A stretch of 64,000 bases of DNA, taken from the NCBI GenBank assembly GCA_030024085.1, contig JASEJE010000003.1, positions 1-64,000 on the forward strand, written 5' to 3'. The notes under the pieces were generated by a model that saw only the letters and a list, made by a program, of their open reading frames with translations, made no database searches and was not told the DNA's origin. This DNA is from Bacillota bacterium. Lineage in GTDB: Bacteria; Bacillota; SHA-98; UBA4971. This document shows positions 1 through 62,079 of this stretch, in pieces. A program made the translations under genes and the position numbers. Within the stretch, counting starts at the first letter, position 1; each line of letters begins with the position of its first letter.

Positions 1-117
1 CGGCAACCCGGAATCTTCTCCCAAACCGGCATGGATTTCTGAACTCACACTTAGCAAGCACCGGCAACCCCAACACCGTCAGGAGAAGCGGCGCGAACTC
101 ATACCGCCATACTCAGG
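1..117 (+). repeat. Palindromic element, copy A: two right ends, one nested in the other
   Basis: Positions 1-54 match the right end of one element (CGGCAACC then a run ending ACTCACACTTAG, the sub-type also seen in copy E). Positions 55-117 match the right end of a second element, starting GCAAGCACCGGCAACC and ending CCGCCATACTCAGG, as in copies B and D. The junction falls at the place where intact copies read CCCTAGCAAGC, so the first element appears inserted at that CTAG. The body of the first element lies outside the window. The outer end contributes the TGA stop (113-115) of the neighbouring minus-strand gene. Confidence 0.7.
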
Positions 118-850
118 CAAGGGGACGCAACCCGCCGTCCCACGCCACATAAAGCTCCTTCCGCGCGATCCTCGACGGGCGCACCTCCGGCGCGAGGCCG
201 GCCCGTTCGGCGATTGCCCGCGCCACATCGTCGGGCCGCGCGTGCCCCCGCGACCCGGTGGCCAGCACCATCTGAACCGGGAGACCCGGCCCGTCGCCCG
301 ACAGGAGGCGCAGATCGTAAATCAGGGGTCTCAAGTCGAATTCCCTCGTGCCTTTGGGCGTCGTGCGCGAAAATGGGATCGCATCGGCGTGCAGGATCCC
401 TCCTATTGCGCTGTCGAGGACGCCCGGCCCTCCCGCGATATCATCACGGTCGAAATCCACCTGGTAAGACGCTGCCGTGATCATGGAACTCAGGGATGGT
501 CCACCGGGAGGAAGCACCCGGCACCGGACGAGCTGAATCCCCGACGGCAGCACTCTCTCGAGCCTTCGCGTGATTTCGGCTGCATCAAGGCTTTCCCGAA
601 GGTCCACATCCACAAGCTCGCACTCGCTTTCCGCACCGACCGGGAGAGCCGGCCCAAACGACATGCGCGGGTGGGGGTGGAAGCCCCGAGTCAGCGCCAC
701 AGGGATGTCGGCTCGCCTTGCCGCCCTCTCGACGGCGCGCATGAAGTCCAGATGGGACATGAACCGGCAGGGTCCTGTCTTGGTGAGCCTGAGCCTGGCA
801 GTGGCGTGCAGCCTACAGTGAGGAGAGCCCTCACCGCGTCCCGTTCCCAT
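113..850 (-). CDS. TIGR03936 family radical SAM-associated protein (DUF2344)
   Basis: A 245-residue protein with the hallmark opening of the TIGR03936/DUF2344 family (RLTKTGPCRFMSHLDFMR near residues 21-38, then FHPHPRMSFGPALPVG). The biochemical role of the family is not established. In many genomes it is encoded next to, or fused with, a TIGR03960 B12-binding-type radical SAM protein, exactly as here: the start ATG directly follows the TGA of the upstream partner, so the two are translationally coupled. In Bacillota this pair usually precedes rng/rplU, which would lie beyond the left edge. The stop codon TGA is inside the end of palindromic element copy A. The N-terminal ~15 residues are poorly conserved, so a slightly later start is possible. 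Confidence 0.88.
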   Translation of the reverse strand: MGTGRGEGSPHCRLHATARLRLTKTGPCRFMSHLDFMRAVERAARRADIPVALTRGFHPHPRMSFGPALPVGAESECELVDVDLRESLDAAEITRRLERVLPSGIQLVRCRVLPPGGPSLSSMITAASYQVDFDRDDIAGGPGVLDSAIGGILHADAIPFSRTTPKGTREFDLRPLIYDLRLLSGDGPGLPVQMVLATGSRGHARPDDVARAIAERAGLAPEVRPSRIARKELYVAWDGGLRPLA

Positions 851-4998: not shown

Positions 4999-5208
4999 CT
5001 AAGTATGGCGTCATAAGTTTGCGCCACTTTTCCTGATGGTGTTAGGGTTGCCGGTGCTTGCTAGGGCGGGGCGTCGAGAATTTGGCTAGCCTTAAGCGCC
5101 AAATTCGAACGCATCTCACCGCACGCGCCGTCCCCGGAGTGCAACACCGGCAACCTGAACAGGACTTGCGCGCTGAAAAGTGGCGCGAACTTGTGGCGAT
5201 CTACCTAG
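4999..5208 (-). repeat. Palindromic element, copy B (full length)
   Basis: Full-length copy in minus orientation. Its two ends are a roughly 34-bp inverted repeat: one end begins CTAAGTATGGCGTCAT (4999 on plus), the other, read from 5208 on minus, begins CTAGGTAGATCGCCAC; both continue into GCGCCACTTTTC. Inside lies a second inverted repeat, GGTTGCCGGTG / CACCGGCAACC, and inside that a third, GAATTTGGC / GCCAAATTC. The 5205-5207 CTA of the outer end is the TAG stop codon of rodA. No protein is encoded. Confidence 0.85.
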
Positions 5209-6323
5209 AAGAGGATCTTCTGGCGCCTCATATAGATGTCGAGCACGAACCCGACGGCGATGAGGTTGGCCATGAGGGAACTACCGCCGTAGCTGAGGAA
5301 CGGTAGCGGGATACCCGTCACGGGCATGAGGCTCATGGTCATGCCGACGTTCACGAGTACATGGAAAAGCAGCATCGCAGCAACACCCGTCGCGACGAGC
5401 CGACCGAAAGCATCCTTCGCGCATGCCGCCGCACGCACGCAGCGCCACAGCACGAGGCCGTACAGCGCCAGCACGGCCACTGCTCCGATGAACCCGAGCT
5501 CCTCGCCGATGACGGAGAAGATGAAGTCGGTATGGTGGGCCGGCAGGAAATTGAGTTGCGCCTGTGTGCCATGGAAAAGCCCTTTACCGAAAAACCTGCC
5601 CGACCCGATAGCGATGGTCGACTGTATCACGTTGTATCCCGTGCCGGTTGGGTCGGCATACGGGTTCAAGAAAGCGAGCAACCGTGCCCGCTGATAGTCT
5701 TTGAGAAGAAAGAAGAACACCACCGGCGAAGCCAGCGCCCCCGCGGCCAGCACCGCCAGGAGGTCCTTCGCCTTAGCTCCGGCCACATACAACATGGCGA
5801 ACGTTATGCCCCCGAACACCAGGGCCGTCCCGAGGTCGTTCTGGAGCAGCACGAGCGCCGCAGGGATGGCCGCATGCGCAAACGCCAGCACAAGCCCGCG
5901 ACGAGTCGTCACATCCTCGGCTTCCGCCAGATGGTGAGCAAGTGTCAGAATGAGCGCCACTTTCGCCAGTTCCGACGGCTGCACCGCGACCGGGCCCAAC
6001 CGGAACCAGCTCTGCGCCCCCGAGATCCTGTGTCCCACCACGAGCACCAGCGCCAGCAAGCATATGTTCCCCACGTACAGCACCCGGTGGGCCTTCTCCG
6101 CGAGCCGGTAGTCCATGGTCAGGATCGCGACGCAGGCAAGTGATCCCAGGACGAACGCGGCCACTTGCTTCTTGACGAAGTACAGTGGGTCCTGCGAAGA
6201 CCCCGGACCTATGCCTCCGCGGGTCGCGCTGAACACGATTACAGACCCCACGAGGCAGAGGGCAAGCACCCCGAAGACGAGCGAGTGGTCAAGGTTTCGC
6301 AGTAGACGTCTATCAAGGAGCAC
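5205..6323 (-). CDS. rodA: RodA/FtsW/SpoVE-family lipid II polymerase (SEDS)
   Basis: Integral membrane SEDS glycosyltransferase that polymerises peptidoglycan for cell elongation with a class B PBP. About ten hydrophobic segments are visible, along with SEDS motifs such as RLGPVAVQPSELAKVALI and the C-terminal GIPLPFLSYGGSSLMANL. I chose the GTG at 6323 (protein starts VLLDRRLLRNLDHS, 372 residues): it has AAGGTGAGG upstream and the longer frame would run into minE. It is last in the mre-PBP2-min group, consistent with the RodA role alongside the PBP2 gene. The stop TAG lies in the end of palindromic element B. Confidence 0.92.
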   Translation of the reverse strand: MLLDRRLLRNLDHSLVFGVLALCLVGSVIVFSATRGGIGPGSSQDPLYFVKKQVAAFVLGSLACVAILTMDYRLAEKAHRVLYVGNICLLALVLVVGHRISGAQSWFRLGPVAVQPSELAKVALILTLAHHLAEAEDVTTRRGLVLAFAHAAIPAALVLLQNDLGTALVFGGITFAMLYVAGAKAKDLLAVLAAGALASPVVFFFLLKDYQRARLLAFLNPYADPTGTGYNVIQSTIAIGSGRFFGKGLFHGTQAQLNFLPAHHTDFIFSVIGEELGFIGAVAVLALYGLVLWRCVRAAACAKDAFGRLVATGVAAMLLFHVLVNVGMTMSLMPVTGIPLPFLSYGGSSLMANLIAVGFVLDIYMRRQKILF

Positions 6324-6333
6324 CGGCGTGCCC

Positions 6334-6639
6334 TCACCTTCTGCTCTTGCTGCGGCGCGCCTGGCCCGTCCGCCGCGTTCCAACCACGGGCACGCTCGCC
6401 ACGAGGGAAAGCCGCCTGTCCGACGAATCGAACCGGACCTTCATGCCCGCCTCATCGATCTCGACGTACTTTGAGACGGCCCTTGCGAGGTCTAGCCGGA
6501 GGCCTTCGAACACCTGAGGGGAAAGCTCGACGCGATCACATGCCAGTGCCAGCTTGAGCCGCTCTTTCGCGAGGCTCTTGCTTCGCGGCTCGCCCAACCT
6601 CGACTTGCCGCCCAGGATTCGTGACATAAAGTCGAACAC
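6334..6639 (-). CDS. minE: Cell division topological specificity factor MinE
   Basis: A 101-residue protein with the MinE layout: an N-terminal MinD-contact/membrane helix (MFDFMSRILGG), then SKSLAKERLKLALACDR and the C-terminal topological domain ending near VASVPV. MinE stimulates MinD ATPase and restricts MinCD to the cell poles. It starts at GTG behind GGGAGGGGA and follows minD by 19 bp. The basic tail (RRTGQARRSKSRR) is longer than usual. Bacillus lacks MinE and uses DivIVA/MinJ, whereas many Clostridia carry MinE; this organism is of the latter kind. Confidence 0.95.
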   Translation of the reverse strand: MFDFMSRILGGKSRLGEPRSKSLAKERLKLALACDRVELSPQVFEGLRLDLARAVSKYVEIDEAGMKVRFDSSDRRLSLVASVPVVGTRRTGQARRSKSRR

Positions 6640-15615: not shown

Positions 15616-15843
15616 GTGGGAAGGAAGAAGAACAACGATCGGCTGAGAACGCTGCGCCAGGTCGACCGGCTGAAGTGGGAAACCGCAGAGCAACTTGGCC
15701 TCGCCGACGACATGAAAGACGCTGACGAACTCAGCGTCAGGGAGGCCGGAAAGGTCGGCGGCCAGATGGTGAGGAAACTGGTCAAGAAGGGCGAGGAGGC
15801 CATCGCGAAGGAGAGCGCCAGGAAGGCCGAGAGGAACCCCTAA
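15616..15843 (+). CDS. Alpha/beta-type small acid-soluble spore protein
   Basis: A 75-residue protein with the conserved second half of alpha/beta SASPs: LKWETAEQLGL (family KYEIAxELG region containing the GPR protease site, here WETA instead of YEIA) and VREAGKVGGQMVRKLVKKGEE (family VGGxMVKRLI). Such proteins coat and protect spore DNA. It starts at GTG with AGAAGGAG about 12 bases upstream. It is the only clear plus-strand gene in the window. The N-terminus is short and basic. The TAA stop (15841-15843) is formed by the first bases of palindromic element C. Confidence 0.85.
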   Translation: MGRKKNNDRLRTLRQVDRLKWETAEQLGLADDMKDADELSVREAGKVGGQMVRKLVKKGEEAIAKESARKAERNP

Positions 15844-16023
15844 GTGTGGGTTCAGAAACCACCGCCACTTTTCGAGGGTTGCCGGTGTTGCCCTCCGGGG
15901 AGGGCGCGTGCGGTGAGATGCGTTCGAATTTGGCGCTTAAGGCTAGCCAAATTCTCGACGCCCCGCCCTAGCAAGCACCGGCAACCCATCACAAAGTCGG
16001 GACACTTGTGCGCCCTCACTTAG
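15840..16023 (+). repeat. Palindromic element, copy C, with a gene stop codon at each end
   Basis: About 184 bp, plus orientation. The left end CTAAGTGTGGGTTCAG (15840) and the right end, read on minus from 16023 as CTAAGTGAGGGCGCAC, are inverted relatives. Inside are GGGTTGCCGGTG / CACCGGCAACCC, the hairpin CCCTCCGGGGAGGG, and GAATTTGGC / GCCAAATTC. The left TAA ends the SASP gene and the right TAA (minus) ends rnfB. As a stable bidirectional hairpin between convergent genes it could act as a shared terminator. Confidence 0.85.
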
Positions 16024-16847
16024 CTTGCCGCAAGGGCATCGGCGCTTGCCCTGGCACCCCTCATCACGATGCACTTCATCGGGCACTTCTCCACGCACTT
16101 GCCGCAGGCGTCGCACTTCGCCGGATCGATGACAGCGAGGTTGTTCTCCATGGTGATGGCCCCCGCCGGACAGACCTTCACGCAAAGCCCGCACCCGATG
16201 CACCCGACCTTGCATGTCTTGCGGACCTCCGCGCCTCGCGCGTACGACCTGCACACGACGGTCACGGACTGGGATGCGGGAACAAGCTGGATTATCCCCC
16301 TGGGGCACGCCGACACGCATCGGCCACACGACGTGCACTCGTCCTCGTCCACGACCGGGAGTCCGTCGGGCCCCATGTGTAGCGCGTCGAAGGTGCACGC
16401 CGCAACGCACGAGCCCAGGCCGAGGCATCCGTAAGTGCACGCTTTGGCACCGCCGCTTACAAGCTGCGCGGCTTTGCAGTCGGAGAGGCCGTCGTACACG
16501 AACCTCGACCCGCAGTTGTCGGAACTTCCCTGGCACAGGACCCTGGCGACTCTCCTCTCTTTCGCCGCACCAGCGTCCACACCCATGATGGCCGCAACCT
16601 TCGCAGCCACAGGCGCCCCGCCAACAGGGCACCCATCGACAGGCGCCTTGCCGGCGACTATCGCGGCGGCGAGCCCGCTGCACCCGGGGAAGCCACACCC
16701 GCCACAGTTGGCGCCGGGAAGGATCTCCGCAATCCTGTCTTGCCTTGGATCCTGCTCGACGGCGAATTTCCTCGCGGCGAAAGCAAGCGCAAGTCCGAAT
16801 ACCGCACCCATCAGCCCGAGGCTGAGCACCGCCTTGACGTAAATCAC
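16020..16847 (-). CDS. rnfB: Rnf complex subunit RnfB (ferredoxin-accepting Fe-S protein)
   Basis: Membrane-anchored electron-entry subunit of the ferredoxin:NAD+ oxidoreductase. The 275-residue protein has an N-terminal hydrophobic helix (about 5-27), the Cys motif CGGCGFPGCSG (residues ~48-58), a further group around CKAAQL and CTYGCLGLGSC, and two ferredoxin pairs (CTSCGRCVSACP; CIGCGLCVKVCP; CDACGKCVEKCP). Last gene of the rnf operon, as in other Clostridia. Its TAA stop lies in element C. Confidence 0.96.
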   Translation of the reverse strand: MIYVKAVLSLGLMGAVFGLALAFAARKFAVEQDPRQDRIAEILPGANCGGCGFPGCSGLAAAIVAGKAPVDGCPVGGAPVAAKVAAIMGVDAGAAKERRVARVLCQGSSDNCGSRFVYDGLSDCKAAQLVSGGAKACTYGCLGLGSCVAACTFDALHMGPDGLPVVDEDECTSCGRCVSACPRGIIQLVPASQSVTVVCRSYARGAEVRKTCKVGCIGCGLCVKVCPAGAITMENNLAVIDPAKCDACGKCVEKCPMKCIVMRGARASADALAAS

Positions 16848-19688: not shown

Positions 19689-20097
19689 CAAACGATCCCC
19701 CCACTTGTACCGCTGTTCGAGAGTCTGCTGGCGCTGCTCCGGCCGCGGCGCCCCGGACAACCGACTAAGTAGATCGCCACGAGTTCGCGCTACTTTTCAG
19801 CGGGTGAGTCCTCGCCAGGGTTGCCGGTGTTGCCCTCCGGGGACGGCGCGCTTGCGGCGCGCCTCGTTCGAATTTGGCGCTTAAGGCTGGCCAAATTCTC
19901 GACGCCCCGCCCTAGCAAGCACCGGCAACCCCAACACCGTCAGGGAAAACGGAGCGGACTCGTGGCGCCGTACCTGGCACAGAACCCGGCCGGCCCGAAG
20001 GTGGCCGCATCCCGGGGGCCGCGTCGCGCAGCCGCCAGCAGCCCGATAGACGGGCCCGATGCTGCAGCGGCGCAGGCATGGGCCGCGCGACCGGGCC
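19689..20097. other. 409-bp gap inside the rnf operon
   Basis: Holds the rnfD ribosome-binding site, palindromic element D (19765-19977) and about 120 bp of GC-rich sequence following the rnfC stop in which I see no gene. Confidence 0.6.
19765..19977 (+). repeat. Palindromic element, copy D (full length), between rnfC and rnfD
   Basis: About 213 bp, plus orientation. Left end CTAAGTAGATCGCCAC; right end GGCGCCGTACCTGG is slightly decayed. Interior: GGTTGCCGGTG, a strong hairpin GGCGCGCTTGCGGCGCGCC, GAATTTGGC with partner GCCAAATTC, and CACCGGCAACC. Neither end overlaps a stop codon: the left end is about 77 bp upstream of rnfD and the right end about 120 bp past the rnfC stop. Confidence 0.85.
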
Positions 20098-26363: not shown

Positions 26364-29300
26364 TCAGCGTGCCATCAGGCGATCCGCGTGCTCCGCCCCG
26401 GAGGAGGCAACGTCACACCGGAGGCACCTCTCTGACTCGTATAGCGCACAGGCCTCCGAGAGACCCGACACGACTTCGCGGAAACCCCCTTTCCTTTCAT
26501 CAATGGCGAGCTTCTCCGGCCGTTGACGCGCCATGCGCTCCTCGTGGATCTCCCCAGCAAGCTCTCTGCCGAGGTCAAGGCTTACCGGGATCTCGCCGGT
26601 GCCGCCCAGGAACCTGTCTATTTCCTCAGCGGCGCGCCTGCCGTCGGCAATCGCCTGGATGACGGTGTCCGGCCCGTTCACGCAGTCCCCACCGGCGAAC
26701 ACGCCGGGCTCGCCGGTCGCGTGGGTCCTCGGATCGGCGACTATCGTAGACCACTTGGTGACCTCGATGCGCGACCCGGCCGGCACCACCGAGGCGTCGG
26801 GCCTCTGACTGATGGCGGATATCACCATGTCCACGTCGATGATGAAGTTCGAACCCTCGATTGGCACGGGGCGCCTGCGGCCGGTCCGGTCGAACTCGCC
26901 CAGGGACATCCGCACGCACTCCATGTTCACAAGCTTGCCATTCCTGCCGATCATCCTGAATGGCGCGGTCAGGAAGTGGATCTTGACCCCCTCCCGCTCG
27001 GCCTCGGCGATCTCGTTCTTGTCCGCCGGCATGTCCTCGCGCTGGCGCCTGTAGATGATGTGCACCTCTTTCGCGCCGAGGCGCAGGGCCGTGCGGGCCG
27101 CGTCGATGGCAGCGTTGCCGCCCCCTATGACCGCGACCTTCTTGCCTACCTTCCGGCGACCGTTCATGTTGACCTCTCGCAGGAACTCCACCGCTCCGAT
27201 AACGCCCTCCAGATCCTCCCCGGGCACGCCCAGCTTCTGGCTGACGTTGGCGCCGACCGCGATGAAGATGGCCCTGTACCCCTGCTCCTTCAGGTCCTCC
27301 AGGGTAATGTCCTTGCCCACTGCTACGCCCGTGCGGATCTCAACGCCTCTGCGACATATGGCCAGGATCTCGGCGTCAAGAACGTCCTTGGGCAGCCTGT
27401 ACTCGGGAATCCCTGCCCTGAGCATTCCGCCAGCCTCGGGGAGCGCCTCGAACACCGTGACCTGGTAGCCGAAGCCCGCAAGGTAATACGCGGCTGTGAG
27501 GCCTGCAGGGCCGGACCCCACGATAGCCACCTTCGCATCCTTCCGAACCGCCGGCCGGTCAGGCGGAAGCGGGTTCATGAGCTCCCAGTCGGCCGCGAAC
27601 CGCTTGAGGTCGCATATGGCCACGGCTTCGTCGAGCTGCGAGCGCCTGCACTTGCCCTCGCACGGGTGGGTGCAGACCCGCCCGCACACCGCGGGGAACG
27701 GGTTCTTCTCCTTTATGAGCTTCACGGCGTCCTGGTACCTCTTCTGCCTTATCAGGCTGATGTACCTCGGCACATCAACTCCTGCAGGGCACGCGTTCTG
27801 GCACGGCGCCTCGAAGAGCGCCGCGCACACCGACGCGGGACACTTCTTATCGCGAATGTGGGCCTCGTACTCGTCTCGGAAGTAGCGTATCGTCGCAAGC
27901 ACCGGGTTGGGTGCCGTCTGGCCCAAGCCACACAGTGATAGCTCCTTCACCTTGAGGGCAAGCTCGACGAGGGTATCGATGTCCTCCATCGTGCCGAGGC
28001 CCTCAGTGATTCTGTTCAAGATCTCCAACATGCGCAGCGTTCCGATGCGACACGGCACGCACTTCCCGCACGACTCGTTCTGGACGAATTGCAGAAAAAA
28101 GCGGGCGAGGTCCACCATGCACGTGTCTTCGTCCGCAACGACGAGGCCCCCCGACCCCATGATGGCTCCGGCCCCGGTCAGCGACTCATAGTCTACAGGA
28201 AGGTTGAGGAGGACGTCGGGAAGGCATCCTCCCGAGGGCCCACCTATTTGAACGGCCTTGAACTTCTTCCCGTCCCTGATGCCGCCGCCGATGTCGAAAA
28301 CGATCTCGCCGAGGCTGATCCCCATCGGGACCTCCACCAGGCCGGTATTGCGCACCTTGCCGGTCAGCGCGAACACCTTGGTGCCCTTGCTTTTCTCAGT
28401 GCCGATGCTCGCATACCACGCAGCCCCGCGCCTTATGATCGGCGGCACGTTCGCGTATGTCTCCACGTTGTTGATATTGGTGGGCATGCCGAACAGCCCG
28501 CTAATCGCCGGGTAAGGCGGCCTCGGTCGCGGCATGCCACGCTCGCCCTGTATGGAGGCAATGAGGGCTGTTTCCTCGCCACAGACGAAAGCGCCTGCGC
28601 CTTCCTTTATGGCGATGTCAAAGGAGAACCCCGAGCCGAGGATATTCTCGCCGAGGAACCCGTACTCCCTCGCCTGCGCTATGGCGACCCTCAGCCTGGC
28701 GATGGCAAGAGGGTATTCTGCACGGACGTATATGTAGCCCCTTTGCGCTCCGATGGCATACGCAGCTATGGTCATCCCCTCAAGCACCGCGTGGGGGTCT
28801 CCCTCAAGCACGCTCCGGTCCATGAAGGCACCCGGGTCGCCTTCGTCGGCGTTGCACACCACGAACTTCCTCTCGCCCGACGCCCGCCTTGCGAACCCCC
28901 ATTTCATCCCGGTTGGAAACCCCGCGCCCCCCCTGCCGCGAAGGCCGGATCGCGTGACCTCCTCGATCACATCTTCCGGCCGCATCTGCAGGCTCTTTGA
29001 GAGGGCGAGATAGCCGTCCCGCACGAGGTATTCATCGATGTTTTCAGGATCTATGAACCCGCAGTTTCGAAGCACGACCCGGTGTTGCTTCGCGTAATAT
29101 GGTAGCTCCCTGTAAGGGTGTGCCTCGTCGGAGATCTCACCCACCACCCACTCTGCGACAGGCCTTCCCTGGACCACATGCTCATCGACGATTCTCGGGA
29201 TCATATCAGGCGTGACGCGTCCGTAAGTTACCCTCGACGCGCCCGGCAGCACCACATCCACCAGGACTTCCTGCTCGCACATGCCGATACACCCGGTGCG

Positions 29301-29579
29301 CTCGAGCGAGGCTGTCACCCCGGCATCTTCCAACTCTTGCTTGAGCGCATCGAAGACCTCCCACGCACCCGCGGCCATGCCGCAGGTGCCCATGCCCACG
29401 ATCACCCGTGCGGGCGCGTCCTCGTGTCTGACCCTGGCAACAAGGGTTTTCACAAGCTCCCGGCATCCGGGGTCGTCATGGCACAGGGGGCCCTCCACCC
29501 GGCATCTAACAAAGTCCCGGCAGGGATTACCGTCGAAGTGGGTACACTTATCGCAACACTTGAAAAGCAATACTCCCAT
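26364..29579 (-). CDS. HndB-NuoF-GltD multidomain flavoprotein (formate dehydrogenase partner)
   Basis: A 1071-residue protein. Order: an N-terminal Cys-rich patch (seven Cys in the first 39 residues), a thioredoxin-like [2Fe-2S] domain (GMGTCGMAAGA, TGCIGMCEQE), NuoF FMN/NADH domain (GRGGAGFPTGMKW, NADEGDPGAFMDR, GEETALIASIQGERG) with its [4Fe-4S] ESCGKCVPCR, then a GltD-type half: Fe-S entry motif CQNACPAGVDVPRY, FAD site [15 protein letters not shown] and NAD(P) site VIGGGNAAIDAARTA. The ATG at 29579 has GGTGAGGG upstream; the frame runs on to 29702 without homology. With FdhA it could form a two-polypeptide NAD(P)-dependent, perhaps bifurcating, formate dehydrogenase. Confidence 0.9.
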   Translation of the reverse strand: MGVLLFKCCDKCTHFDGNPCRDFVRCRVEGPLCHDDPGCRELVKTLVARVRHEDAPARVIVGMGTCGMAAGAWEVFDALKQELEDAGVTASLERTGCIGMCEQEVLVDVVLPGASRVTYGRVTPDMIPRIVDEHVVQGRPVAEWVVGEISDEAHPYRELPYYAKQHRVVLRNCGFIDPENIDEYLVRDGYLALSKSLQMRPEDVIEEVTRSGLRGRGGAGFPTGMKWGFARRASGERKFVVCNADEGDPGAFMDRSVLEGDPHAVLEGMTIAAYAIGAQRGYIYVRAEYPLAIARLRVAIAQAREYGFLGENILGSGFSFDIAIKEGAGAFVCGEETALIASIQGERGMPRPRPPYPAISGLFGMPTNINNVETYANVPPIIRRGAAWYASIGTEKSKGTKVFALTGKVRNTGLVEVPMGISLGEIVFDIGGGIRDGKKFKAVQIGGPSGGCLPDVLLNLPVDYESLTGAGAIMGSGGLVVADEDTCMVDLARFFLQFVQNESCGKCVPCRIGTLRMLEILNRITEGLGTMEDIDTLVELALKVKELSLCGLGQTAPNPVLATIRYFRDEYEAHIRDKKCPASVCAALFEAPCQNACPAGVDVPRYISLIRQKRYQDAVKLIKEKNPFPAVCGRVCTHPCEGKCRRSQLDEAVAICDLKRFAADWELMNPLPPDRPAVRKDAKVAIVGSGPAGLTAAYYLAGFGYQVTVFEALPEAGGMLRAGIPEYRLPKDVLDAEILAICRRGVEIRTGVAVGKDITLEDLKEQGYRAIFIAVGANVSQKLGVPGEDLEGVIGAVEFLREVNMNGRRKVGKKVAVIGGGNAAIDAARTALRLGAKEVHIIYRRQREDMPADKNEIAEAEREGVKIHFLTAPFRMIGRNGKLVNMECVRMSLGEFDRTGRRRPVPIEGSNFIIDVDMVISAISQRPDASVVPAGSRIEVTKWSTIVADPRTHATGEPGVFAGGDCVNGPDTVIQAIADGRRAAEEIDRFLGGTGEIPVSLDLGRELAGEIHEERMARQRPEKLAIDERKGGFREVVSGLSEACALYESERCLRCDVASSGAEHADRLMAR

Positions 29580-53650: not shown

Positions 53651-54013
53651 TCAGGCGCTGGCTATGACCCACTCGCCCACAACCTGGCCGTTAACGATGT
53701 GGCTTGCCACGATCTGGCGGGCCTTCTCCTTCGTCACCTTCCCATATGTCACTTTGGTAGCGCCGGGCTTTATCACGTCGACGATGGGCTCCTGCTCGCA
53801 CAGGCCGATACACCCTGTCTGGGTCACCACCACATCCTGGATGTTACGCTTCGCGAGTTCCTCCATGATGGCCGCGAGCGTTTCCCGCGCCCCTGCGGCG
53901 ATGCCGCACGTGCCCATGCCCACCACGATCCTCGTGGTCTCCTTGCCCTCACGCAGCCTGGTCATGGCCTGGGCCTGCTTCCTGATGCGATCCAGTTCCT
54001 CAACGGTCTTCAT
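53651..54013 (-). CDS. hndB: Small [2Fe-2S] subunit of the Hnd hydrogenase
   Basis: A 120-residue thioredoxin-like [2Fe-2S] protein with GMGTCGIAAGARETL and TGCIGLCEQEP, closely resembling the N-terminal domain of the NuoF-GltD fusion at 26364-29579. First gene of the operon; ATG 54013 follows CAGGAGGTG. Electron-transfer role in the hydrogenase complex. Confidence 0.92.
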   Translation of the reverse strand: MKTVEELDRIRKQAQAMTRLREGKETTRIVVGMGTCGIAAGARETLAAIMEELAKRNIQDVVVTQTGCIGLCEQEPIVDVIKPGATKVTYGKVTKEKARQIVASHIVNGQVVGEWVIASA

Positions 54014-54471
54014 CGCGGACACCTCCTGAGCTTTCCCCTCTCGGCACGGTTGCGTCGAGTGTACACCTAGTTTCGCCAACTTCGTACATACTTGAGGACT
54101 TCGCGCTTTCCTTCACAATCCCCCTTCCAAAGAGACGCTCCGGCCCGTAGCCCACACAGCACCTATGATACCATCGGGTAGACTCCCCAGGCAACCAGTA
54201 TTTCCACGCACCTGGCCGGATTCCTCCATGGCTTTGCCCGCCAGGCGCGATCTCTACGTGTGAGTTCGTAGATCCATGCCGGCTTGGGAGAGACTGCCAG
54301 TTTGCCGGTGCTTGCTCGCCGGGGCGCTCTCGATCTGGCAGGCCTGAATGCTAGGCCTGACGAGGCGCGCCGCAAGTGCGCCGTCCCCGGAGTGCAATAC
54401 CGGCAACCCCTGGAAAAGTGGCCGTGATTTCTGAACCCGCACTTGGATTCATGACGCCACACAACGGCCGA
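54014..54471. other. 458-bp region upstream of hndB, containing element E
   Basis: Must contain the hnd promoter, but I see only a Rex half-site (TTGTGAA on minus near 54114-54120) and no convincing -10/-35 pair. Palindromic element E occupies about 54255-54447. Confidence 0.5.
54255..54447 (-). repeat. Palindromic element, copy E (divergent sub-type)
   Basis: About 193 bp, minus orientation. Read on minus: end CCAAGTGCGGGTTCAG, then GCCACTTTTCC, GGTTGCCGGTATTGC, hairpin GGCGCACTTGCGGCGCGCC, hairpin CAGGCCTAGCATTCAGGCCTG-like core (7-bp arms CAGGCCT/AGGCCTG), GCAAGCACCGGCAAAC, then a decayed end near CTACGTGTGAGTTC. The inner hairpin has a different sequence from copies B-D but the same pairing. 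Confidence 0.75.
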
Positions 54472-59299: not shown

Positions 59300-59461
59300 C
59301 CGCATGTACAAGTTTGGAGACCACTTCTGCTTCGGCGAAGGTTACCGGTGTTGCACCCCCGGGGACGGCACGCCAGGCGGGGCGCCTCGACAGAAATGCG
59401 GTACCGGCGACGCCGAACCTCGCGGGAAAACCGTCGCTGCAAGGCCAGGAACGTGCGCTCA
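59300..59461 (+). repeat. Palindromic element, copy F (degenerate)
   Basis: Recognised from GGTTACCGGTGTTGCACCCC and GGGGACGGC, with later parts strongly diverged. The right side, read on minus from 59461 as CTGAGCGCACGTTCC, resembles the CTAAGTGTGGGTTC end and again contains the stop codon (TGA) of its neighbour, the SPOR gene. Confidence 0.45.
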
Positions 59462-60001
59462 GCGCATCACCACGACAGTGTAGCCCTTCGCTTCGAGCTC
59501 GGCGGCGAGCCTGTCGGCGTTGGCCTTCTCTGCGAAAGCCCCCACCTGCACCCTGTATGGAGCACCGCCGGTCACGAACCCTGCATACCCTGCGCCCGCG
59601 AGCTCGTGGGCCAGGGTCTCCGCGCCCGTCCTGTCGTCAAACTCGCCCACCTGCACCCGGTAAAGGAACTGGCCGGGGGGCGCCGCGGGCGCCTGGGCGC
59701 TTTCCTCACCCGGGTAGGGCACCGTGACACCGGACCCCTGCACTTCGTCGGACGTCCCACGAGGGACCGGGACACCGGGCTTCGCGGGAGACGTCGAGGC
59801 AACATCATCGGTTGCACCTGCGGGCGCGGCCGGAGTCGCTACCTGCGACGCCCGTCCGCCATCCGGCTCCGGGCCTGATGCAAGGAGGCCAAAGGCGTAC
59901 CTGCCCATGAGCACGCCGAGGCCGATGGCAAGCGCCGCCATGATCACCAGCATCAGCACCATGGACAGGCTCTGGCCCGCCCCTCCCCTTCTTTCAGGCA
60001 T
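59459..60001 (-). CDS. SPOR-domain membrane protein (SpoIIB-like position)
   Basis: A 180-residue protein with an N-terminal membrane helix (about 14-36), a Pro/Ala-rich linker and two SPOR-type repeats (FLYRVQVGEFDDRTGAE; YRVQVGAFAEKANADRLA). SPOR domains bind denuded glycan at septa. In Bacillus the SPOR protein SpoIIB is encoded between folC/comC and maf; this gene follows folC but the maf block is about 45 kb away. ATG 60001 with GGGGGGA upstream. Confidence 0.85.
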   Translation of the reverse strand: MPERRGGAGQSLSMVLMLVIMAALAIGLGVLMGRYAFGLLASGPEPDGGRASQVATPAAPAGATDDVASTSPAKPGVPVPRGTSDEVQGSGVTVPYPGEESAQAPAAPPGQFLYRVQVGEFDDRTGAETLAHELAGAGYAGFVTGGAPYRVQVGAFAEKANADRLAAELEAKGYTVVVMR

Positions 60002-60030
60002 CTTCGATCCCCCCTCAAGCGTTCCTGTCA

Positions 60031-62079
60031 CTATATTACTTCCTGGTGCGGGCGAATTCCTCCTGTCGGCGGCGGAGGAAGCAAATCATGCGCCCACGGA
60101 GGACGCATGTGAAGCTCGAGCACGACGAGGCGGGTATCGCGGACGGCCTCGCCAAGCCCTGCCAGCACATCCCCCACAGCAGATGCGAACACCACAGGGA
60201 GGTTCCGCCTGCCGGCAACCGCCTTCGCCACCTCGATCCCCCGCAGCACGTCCGCGGGGGTCGTCTCGTCGCCCATGTGGGTGTTGCTCACGATCCCGGA
60301 GAAGCTCAGCCTGGACGAGTCCTCGATGGATTCGAGCATGGCCTCGGCTCCCGGGACGTCCCTCGTGAATGGGCGGTTGGTGTTGAGCACGAAGAACATG
60401 TCGTATCCCGCCGCCTCGAACTCCGCCGAGTATCTTGCAAGGACCCTCCCGCCGACCGGGTCACCGCCGACATCGAACACGACCGTAGTGCTCCTGTCGT
60501 CGAACGCCTGGAGTATCCCGGGAGCGAGGGCCGGAAGGTCCGCGGCCTCGAAACCAGGCGCCGACGACACGACCTTGATGCCTTCGCGGTCCATGATGCG
60601 TGCCGCCTCGCGGGATCTGAAGTAGGGGTTGACGATGTCGAGGTCAACCACGATCACCCGCGCGCCCTCCCGGCGCCTCATCCTGGCGAAGTTCAAAGAA
60701 ACCTCTGTCTTGCCCGATCCGTACGCGCCGCTGAAAACCACGATCCTGCTAGTCATGGGGAGCCTCCCTGCGACGGACAGCAGGTGGTTCCTGACCTCCC
60801 CGACAAGATACAGGGACCCGCACACAACGAGGGCCCCAGCCCCGTCGTCGCCTGCGCGTGCAAGGCCCTCGTCCACGGCCTCAGTAGCGCTGGATGACAC
60901 GACCGCCTCCCGCCCCTCGCTCGCTGCAAGCATGGCAATGGTTGAAGGCTCGGCCCCCCCGAGCCTCGACGACGAGGCCCCGGTCGCGATGATGCATGAA
61001 GCGAACCCGGCCACCTGGTGGACCATCTCCGCGACAGGTTTATCCCGCGATACCCCGACGACAGCCGTGACCGGGCGGTCTCCGACCACTTCGGGAACGG
61101 CCTCGGCAAGCCTTTTCATGCCGTCGAGGTTGTGGGCGCCGTCCACCAGCACGAGGGGCTGCCGCTGAAGCACCTCGAGCCGGCCGGGCCACCGGGTGAG
61201 CCTGAGCCCTCGCCTCAGAGCGTCTCCACCGCCCATGTTCACGCCGAGGCTACGGAGCGCCCCGATGGCGCCCACAGCGCACGCGGCGTTCTCGACCTGA
61301 TGGGGGCCGAGAAGCGATATCTCGAGCTGGCCCAGGTCATCGCCGCCCATGCGGGCCCGGAAGGTCTGCCCTTCAGCGCCGTGCCCGGTCCGCTCGTACC
61401 ATATGTCTTCGCCCACTACGTAAATCCGGGCGGCTCTCTCCGCGGCAACGCGCTTTATCACAGCCAGGGCCTGCGGGTGCTGCGCGCCGACGACTACCGG
61501 GACGCCGGGTTTGATGATGCCGGCTTTCTCGAAAGCAATTTCCTCGAGTGTGTCGCCCAGTTTCTCGCGGTGGTCCATGTCCACATGGGTGATGACCGAT
61601 ACCAGTGGGGTGATCACGTTCGTGGCGTCGAACCTGCCTCCGAGCCCCACCTCGACGACCGCGTAGTCCACGTCCTCCTCGGCGAAGTGGAGAAACGATG
61701 CGACAGTCCCCATCTCGAACTCTGTCGGGGGTCCCAGGGCGGGATCGCGCCCGACCTCCTCGAAGTGCGGGCGCAGCCTGGTGATGAGATCGGCCAGGCA
61801 TGCCCTGGGGATGGGCCTGCCGTTTACGGTGATGCGTTCGGTGTACGACGCAAGGTGCGGGGACGTGTACAGTCCCACGCGAAACCCGGCGGCGCGAAGG
61901 ACAGAGGCCGTCATAGCGGCGACCGACCCCTTGCCGTTGGTGCCTGCCACGTGGACGGCTTTGAGCTTCAGGTGGGGCGAGCCTGTGCGGTCAAGGAGAG
62001 CGAGCGTGCGGCCGAGGCCCAGGTTCACTCCGAACTTGCCCAGGCTATGAAGGAATGCGATGGCTTCCTCGTAGTCCAT
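60031..62079 (-). CDS. folC: FolC folylpolyglutamate synthase fused in frame to a P-loop ATPase
   Basis: Residues 1-~435 are FolC: AVHVAGTNGKGSVAAMTASVL (P-loop), TSPHLASYTERI, FEMGTVASFL and VDGAHNLDGMKRLA, ending LYLVGEVRNHLLS. Residues ~442-682 are a separate CobQ/MinD-like ATPase: VVFSGAYGSGKTEVSLNFA (P-loop), VDLDIVNPYFRSREAARI, VFDVGGDPVGGRV. An internal ATG (60756) has GGGAGG six bases upstream, so the second part may also be made alone. FolC adds glutamates to folates used by the Wood-Ljungdahl pathway. The ATPase has no known role. Confidence 0.88.
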   Translation of the reverse strand: MDYEEAIAFLHSLGKFGVNLGLGRTLALLDRTGSPHLKLKAVHVAGTNGKGSVAAMTASVLRAAGFRVGLYTSPHLASYTERITVNGRPIPRACLADLITRLRPHFEEVGRDPALGPPTEFEMGTVASFLHFAEEDVDYAVVEVGLGGRFDATNVITPLVSVITHVDMDHREKLGDTLEEIAFEKAGIIKPGVPVVVGAQHPQALAVIKRVAAERAARIYVVGEDIWYERTGHGAEGQTFRARMGGDDLGQLEISLLGPHQVENAACAVGAIGALRSLGVNMGGGDALRRGLRLTRWPGRLEVLQRQPLVLVDGAHNLDGMKRLAEAVPEVVGDRPVTAVVGVSRDKPVAEMVHQVAGFASCIIATGASSSRLGGAEPSTIAMLAASEGREAVVSSSATEAVDEGLARAGDDGAGALVVCGSLYLVGEVRNHLLSVAGRLPMTSRIVVFSGAYGSGKTEVSLNFARMRRREGARVIVVDLDIVNPYFRSREAARIMDREGIKVVSSAPGFEAADLPALAPGILQAFDDRSTTVVFDVGGDPVGGRVLARYSAEFEAAGYDMFFVLNTNRPFTRDVPGAEAMLESIEDSSRLSFSGIVSNTHMGDETTPADVLRGIEVAKAVAGRRNLPVVFASAVGDVLAGLGEAVRDTRLVVLELHMRPPWAHDLLPPPPTGGIRPHQEVI

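Follow-up and report, generated by a model that had tools for sequence, protein, structure and literature searches.

Stop codons supplied by short palindromic repeats at CTAG sites in an uncultured Bacillota bacterium: probable miniature transposons of the IS630 family

The window analyzed here is a whole stretch of 64,000 nucleotides, read from base 1 of contig JASEJE010000003.1 (C33 in our labels) in assembly GCA_030024085.1. The source is a draft genome of 3.11 Mb in 65 contigs (95.7% complete), labeled G000, from an uncultured Bacillota that carries a spore-protein gene. Short palindromic repeats of one family recur along this stretch, and several of them supply the stop codons of the genes beside them. 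The features concerned are the following.

1–53, no strand assigned: right-hand portion of an element whose ends are of another type (...CTCACACT plus the TA copy), sitting in the core CTAG of the next element and cut by the contig start.
54–116, minus strand: right-hand portion of a type A element, whose terminal CTCAG supplies the TGA stop (113–115) of the TIGR03936 gene.
113–850, minus strand: gene for a TIGR03936/DUF2344 radical-SAM-associated protein, ending in the element.
4999–5208, plus strand: full-length type A element, C-TA-AGTATGGCG...GATCTACC-TA-G.
5045–5155, plus strand: conserved core, GGTTGCCGGTG...CACCGGCAACC, common to every end type.
5205–6383, minus strand: rodA, with its TAG stop made by the element end.
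15616–15843, plus strand: alpha/beta-type SASP gene, with its TAA stop made by the element's left end.
15840–16023, minus strand: element with ends of type B/D and the common core; both ends are stops of convergent genes.
16020–16847, minus strand: rnfB, with its TAA stop from the right end of the element; in G001, a second species of the genus, the protein has its last residue at the same position.
19765–19977, minus strand: full-length type A element in the rnfC–rnfD gap, making no stop codon.
54255–54447, plus strand: degenerate type B copy with core.
59300–59461, no strand assigned: degenerate copy, weak, with its end on the TGA stop of a SPOR-domain gene (59459–60031).

A first-pass annotation made from the letters alone had grouped six loci of the window into one family of nested palindromes whose outer ends form the stop codons of flanking genes. 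The family is real: its arms, 111–126 nt long, are 85%–98% identical between loci, and a 210-bp copy used as the query finds 43 matches within the same genome, the full-length ones at 89%–94% identity. The stops it named are likewise the ends of open reading frames, at 113 (TGA), 5205 (TAG), 15843 (TAA), and 16020 (TAA), and so is the fifth that it had thought likely, at 59459 (TGA). The outline of the six members needed some revision. What had been taken for a single element at 1–117 is a nested pair of elements truncated at the contig start, and the loci at 54255–54447 and 59300–59461 are members but degenerate ones, the former with ends of the second type and the latter missed by the family profile search. 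That the contig begins within a nested element pair (window 1–116) is worth recording for assembly, and the repeats probably cause some of the breaks in the draft. Elsewhere in the window, positions 29221–29399 and 53742–53923 hold diverged copies of one stretch (71%–88% identical as DNA), the second of them falling within a [2Fe-2S] ferredoxin-like gene; these are apparently paralogous domains.

The elements are short (~210 bp), lack a transposase gene, and are bounded by terminal inverted repeats, CTAAGTA/TACTTAG, on the scheme C-TA-AGT...ACT-TA-G. Read from the outside in, each consists of the flanking C, the TA, AGT(A/G), imperfectly pairing arms of ~35–45 nt (the outer arms are 79% complementary), and an inner stem, GGTTGCCGGTG/CACCGGCAACC, that encloses two hairpins. 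Within G000, one core is found inside three main sets of ends (A, B/D, and C), all of which begin CTAAGT(A/G); type A accounts for 43 complete copies, and counts made by inspection give ~12 for B/D and ~15 for C. One chimeric element joins a type A end to a type C end. The 110-bp core common to all end types also occurs in a different genus and in a different family of the class. Several genomes share a further short inverted repeat, with ...GGGGAATATCAACAGTCTCGT ends (L125:330–455, L126:1850–1975, and C44 near 59020 and 103944), and in a few G000 copies it seems to substitute for the CTAAGT end of the core element.

Family counts in G000 cover 842 kb of the 3.11 Mb, in which the family profile has 94 matches, 47 of them near full length, and the density is ~110 copies per Mb; G001 has 110 copies in 1.28 Mb. 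Among 17 genomes of the class, the family is present in 6/6 species of the genus, 6/7 of the sister genus, and one other family, and it is absent from all 44 genomes belonging to other classes of the phylum. One congener, G005, yielded 16 first-look candidates, compared with 88–376 in the other congeners, so the family has expanded or been lost unevenly across the genus. The literature that we searched holds no description of it, and its host class is composed of little-known, uncultured Bacillota.

The core itself contains CTAG, and elements inserted into the cores of their siblings provide a direct view of the target site. At C44:27790–28127, one element lies within the core of another and both junctions are present: intact siblings read CTTGC-TA-GGGCGGG, and the filled site reads CTTGC-TA-AGTATGG...CACT-TA-GGGCAG (with a longer right junction, CTTGC-TA-AGTATGG ... 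CACT-TA-GGGCAGAG). Further junctions into the core CTAG show the same pattern, including one at window 49–54, where the right junction of the element at 1–53 reads ACT-TA-GCAAGCACC, compared with CCTAGCAAGC in 32 intact cores. Set against intact siblings, the nested junctions thus show insertion in CTAG with the TA duplicated. Across the family, 81 of 119 resolved ends read CTAA (63) or CTAG (18), and the remaining ends are mostly transitions (e.g., CTGA or CCAA). The stops of orthologs that lack the element read CTAG in 5/20 cases, against a background of 4%–8% (P = 0.006). Duplication of TA, together with inverted ends of the double-strand type, points to a DDE transposase rather than to the REP-associated tyrosine transposase (RAYT, Y1_Tnp) of REP/BIME repeats, and IS630 prefers TA within CTAG, by the title of Tenzen and Ohtsubo 1991 (cited in PMC2170065).

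How often do such insertions become stop codons? Using gene calls from an in-house caller, we counted the elements with a resolved end for which the TAR (or TGA) of an end is the exact stop of the adjoining gene. Exact coincidence was found for 20/75 elements (27%) in G000 and 20/89 (22%) in G001, compared with ~0.4% expected under uniform non-coding insertion and 8% at random TA (P = 1e-6 and 2e-5), in agreement with the earlier observation that insertion falls exactly at stops. Such rates would be expected if stop codons or gene ends themselves drew the element (for example, via translation termination or a gene-end factor), beyond any sequence preference. However, random non-coding CTAG sites overlap stops at 19.5% in G000 and 20.6% in G001, from which the observed rates do not differ significantly (P = 0.08 and P = 0.37), and the nested insertions use the CTAG of sibling elements, away from genes. 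No copies were found inside called genes, though coding sequence contains about half of the CTAG sites that lie outside elements, an absence that we attribute to selection against coding insertions. Because a preference for CTAG combined with the loss of genic insertions gives the observed rate, the mechanism aimed at stops that had been suggested at first is unneeded, and we regard it as very improbable.

Comparison between species shows both which sites are occupied and what insertion does to the protein. We compared 20 reciprocal-best ortholog pairs of G000 and G001 in which one gene has an element at its stop. In 20/20 the other gene lacks it there, and 0/20 share it, which argues against ancestral sequence retained at these places. 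By tail comparison, the C-terminal end lies at the same residue in 13/20 pairs, compared with a background of 68% of 391 pairs; in a fourteenth (C11:84558), which the aligner had split, the final residues are in agreement as well. Having an element at its stop thus costs the protein nothing, and the early claim that proteins are left intact holds. A different account would have elements inserting at random into the 3' parts of genes, the protein being truncated at the first stop within the element. A few cases in G000 fit it, the stops lying within the element at +5, +15, and +35 (5/25), but truncation predicts equal use of the three frames, and a single frame, that of the TAR of the end, holds 20/25 of the stops inside elements in G000 (P = 2e-6) and 20/20 in G001 (P = 3e-10). 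With protein ends exactly matching those of element-free orthologs in the same share as the background, truncation is barely credible as a general explanation.

The individual loci of the window were also followed in up to five congeners. At syntenic sites, the elements of the window are missing from the same place, except for one SASP stop in G004, which is the end of another element of a different type; in the gap between rnfC and rnfD, G003 and G004 carry a related but different element. In all five congeners, rodA terminates at the corresponding codon, which reads TGA, TAG, or TAA, and no element is present there. G001 has an element of its own in the region downstream of rodA (G001:C4 near 133,266–133,374), at a different place, and this is an independent insertion. 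The double stop shared by the SASP gene and rnfB would follow if both genes once overlapped in one CTAG.

Strong nested pairing at gene ends could also mark a domesticated transcription terminator or structured RNA that serves the host, the second model put forward by the first-pass annotation. In a set of 228 unique cores from 12 genomes, for which a strand-neutral structure was obtained by folding the consensus, 37 pairs are 88% Watson-Crick and 14 show compensatory changes, above a shuffle mean of 4.8 and maximum of 8; conservation of the core across two families of the class speaks for the same model. However, G-U mismatches are matched by A-C mismatches in these cores (305 versus 299 cells; 108 versus 99 distinct cases, P = 0.58), the orientation to tandem genes is near even (same:opposite 33:24 and 37:30 in the two species), 13/89 and 15/91 copies lie between divergent genes, and element positions are not conserved between species. 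An Rfam search returned no match near threshold and only a chance hit in a flank, and the sequence has no T-run adjoining the stems. A reading as RNA drawn from 25 representative cores (G-U 44 versus A-C 17) was dropped, as the excess vanished in the 228 cores. We consider a terminator or RNA function quite improbable. The parity of mismatches and the near-even orientation fit a palindrome maintained at the level of DNA, whether for a cruciform function or through replicative template-switch correction of quasi-palindromes, and not one selected as a transcript.

The remaining evidence concerns the enzyme. A DDE_3 (PF13358) search of the source draft genome (95.7% complete) found no gene, and the genome holds only a decayed IS630 match of 55 residues with an internal stop, at C8. 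The DDE_3 search of the class led to relatives that carry IS630 transposase genes or fragments (NF033545, DDE_3). The genes sit at contig ends, and fragments in G009, G013, and G004 adjoin CTAAGTAAGGTTCCATTAGTTTTC-type ends. The main end of our elements, CTAAGTATGGCGCCATAAGTTTGCG or ...TTTTC, agrees with the IS630 end of G009 at 20–21 of 26 positions, a match equaled by 0/20,000 random controls with a CTAAGT start; for the opposite end (A2), agreement with the opposite IS end is weak (16/26, P ≈ 0.006). For end types B and C, no partner was clearly identified. A search with the end pattern found ends of both kinds, and its reversed control gave 0 hits. In G010 and G004, internally deleted IS630 copies have such ends on both sides, which is the expected route from a transposon to a miniature element. 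The class yielded no complete IS630 in which both ends flank an intact gene; G014 has a 280-residue IS630 gene with such an end on one side only. The DDE_3 loci L119–L124 and L127–L129, which have no clear CTAAGT ends, were set aside as partners. A transposase with matching ends is thus found in relatives, and the source genome contributes the decayed fragment alone. The ends borne by these relatives favor the original suggestion of a MITE-like element, and mobilization in trans by an IS630 transposase is what we infer from them.

The elements are very probably non-autonomous, miniature transposons (MITEs) of the IS630 family (Tc1/mariner-type). In the mechanism we propose, an IS630 transposase, now decayed in G000, would have excised elements by cutting at the inverted ends and inserted them at the TA of a CTAG, with duplication of the TA. 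Where the CTAG holds a TAG stop (NNC TAG), insertion would leave C-TA followed by the first base of the element, A (or G), and would so produce TAA or TAG at the same codon, with the protein unchanged. As CTAG is palindromic, the outcome would be the same for a gene that reaches the site from the opposite direction. Genic insertions would be lost by selection, and with stops at about one-fifth of non-coding CTAG sites, insertions at stops would be common.

Several known systems share parts of this behavior. RUP of Streptococcus pneumoniae is a 107-bp MITE of IS630-Spn1 with ~110 copies, and it resembles the present family as a short repeat with IS630-matching ends, a TA target, and proposed movement in trans (PMC2229807, PMC3049150). 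RUP is densest 50–150 bp from genes, whereas here a quarter of copies lie on stops; the present family, unlike RUP, has ~110 copies per Mb, is GC-rich, and has a single conserved core framed by three types of end. BOX repeats of Streptococcus pneumoniae also provide the stops of genes (36 of them, with no strong evidence that these are truncated), but they are modular (boxA-B-C), with ends loosely like another IS (ISSpn2), and in that account the supply of stops was not tied to a target sequence (PMC3049150). IS630 of Shigella sonnei and ISY100 (IS630/Tc1/mariner) duplicate TA, and IS630 prefers TA within CTAG, by the title cited above (PMC2170065); unlike the present family, these elements are autonomous and encode a transposase. 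Correia elements, ERIC/RU-1, and other TA-ended bacterial MITEs are short palindromic repeats with TA ends (PMC2229807). Their sequences, however, are unlike the present family. We know of no comparable CTAG preference or stop-codon rate among these TA-ended MITEs. A literature search, conducted mostly without subscription papers, found no paper joining CTAG targeting to stop codons.

The family is therefore large, old, and of a known kind, an IS630-derived MITE, and its position is clearly explained. The part that the MITE model leaves unexplained remains the conserved core with its interchangeable ends. A possible, if rather doubtful, reading is that the conserved unit is the 110-bp core rather than the ends; kept across families while the ends change, it may act at the DNA level and outlive each transposase. 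Its role may be that of a cruciform, of a site for a host protein, or of a feature enabling pickup by successive IS630 lineages. For the positions of the elements, the analysis offers a simple quantitative reason why bacterial MITEs can end up as the stops of genes: the CTAG palindrome overlaps TAG stops on either strand, and the TA duplication restores a stop, so that insertion at a gene end does no harm. From this rule one can predict the IS families that should build up at stop codons elsewhere, and it warns annotators that the stop codon of a gene may belong to a transposon.
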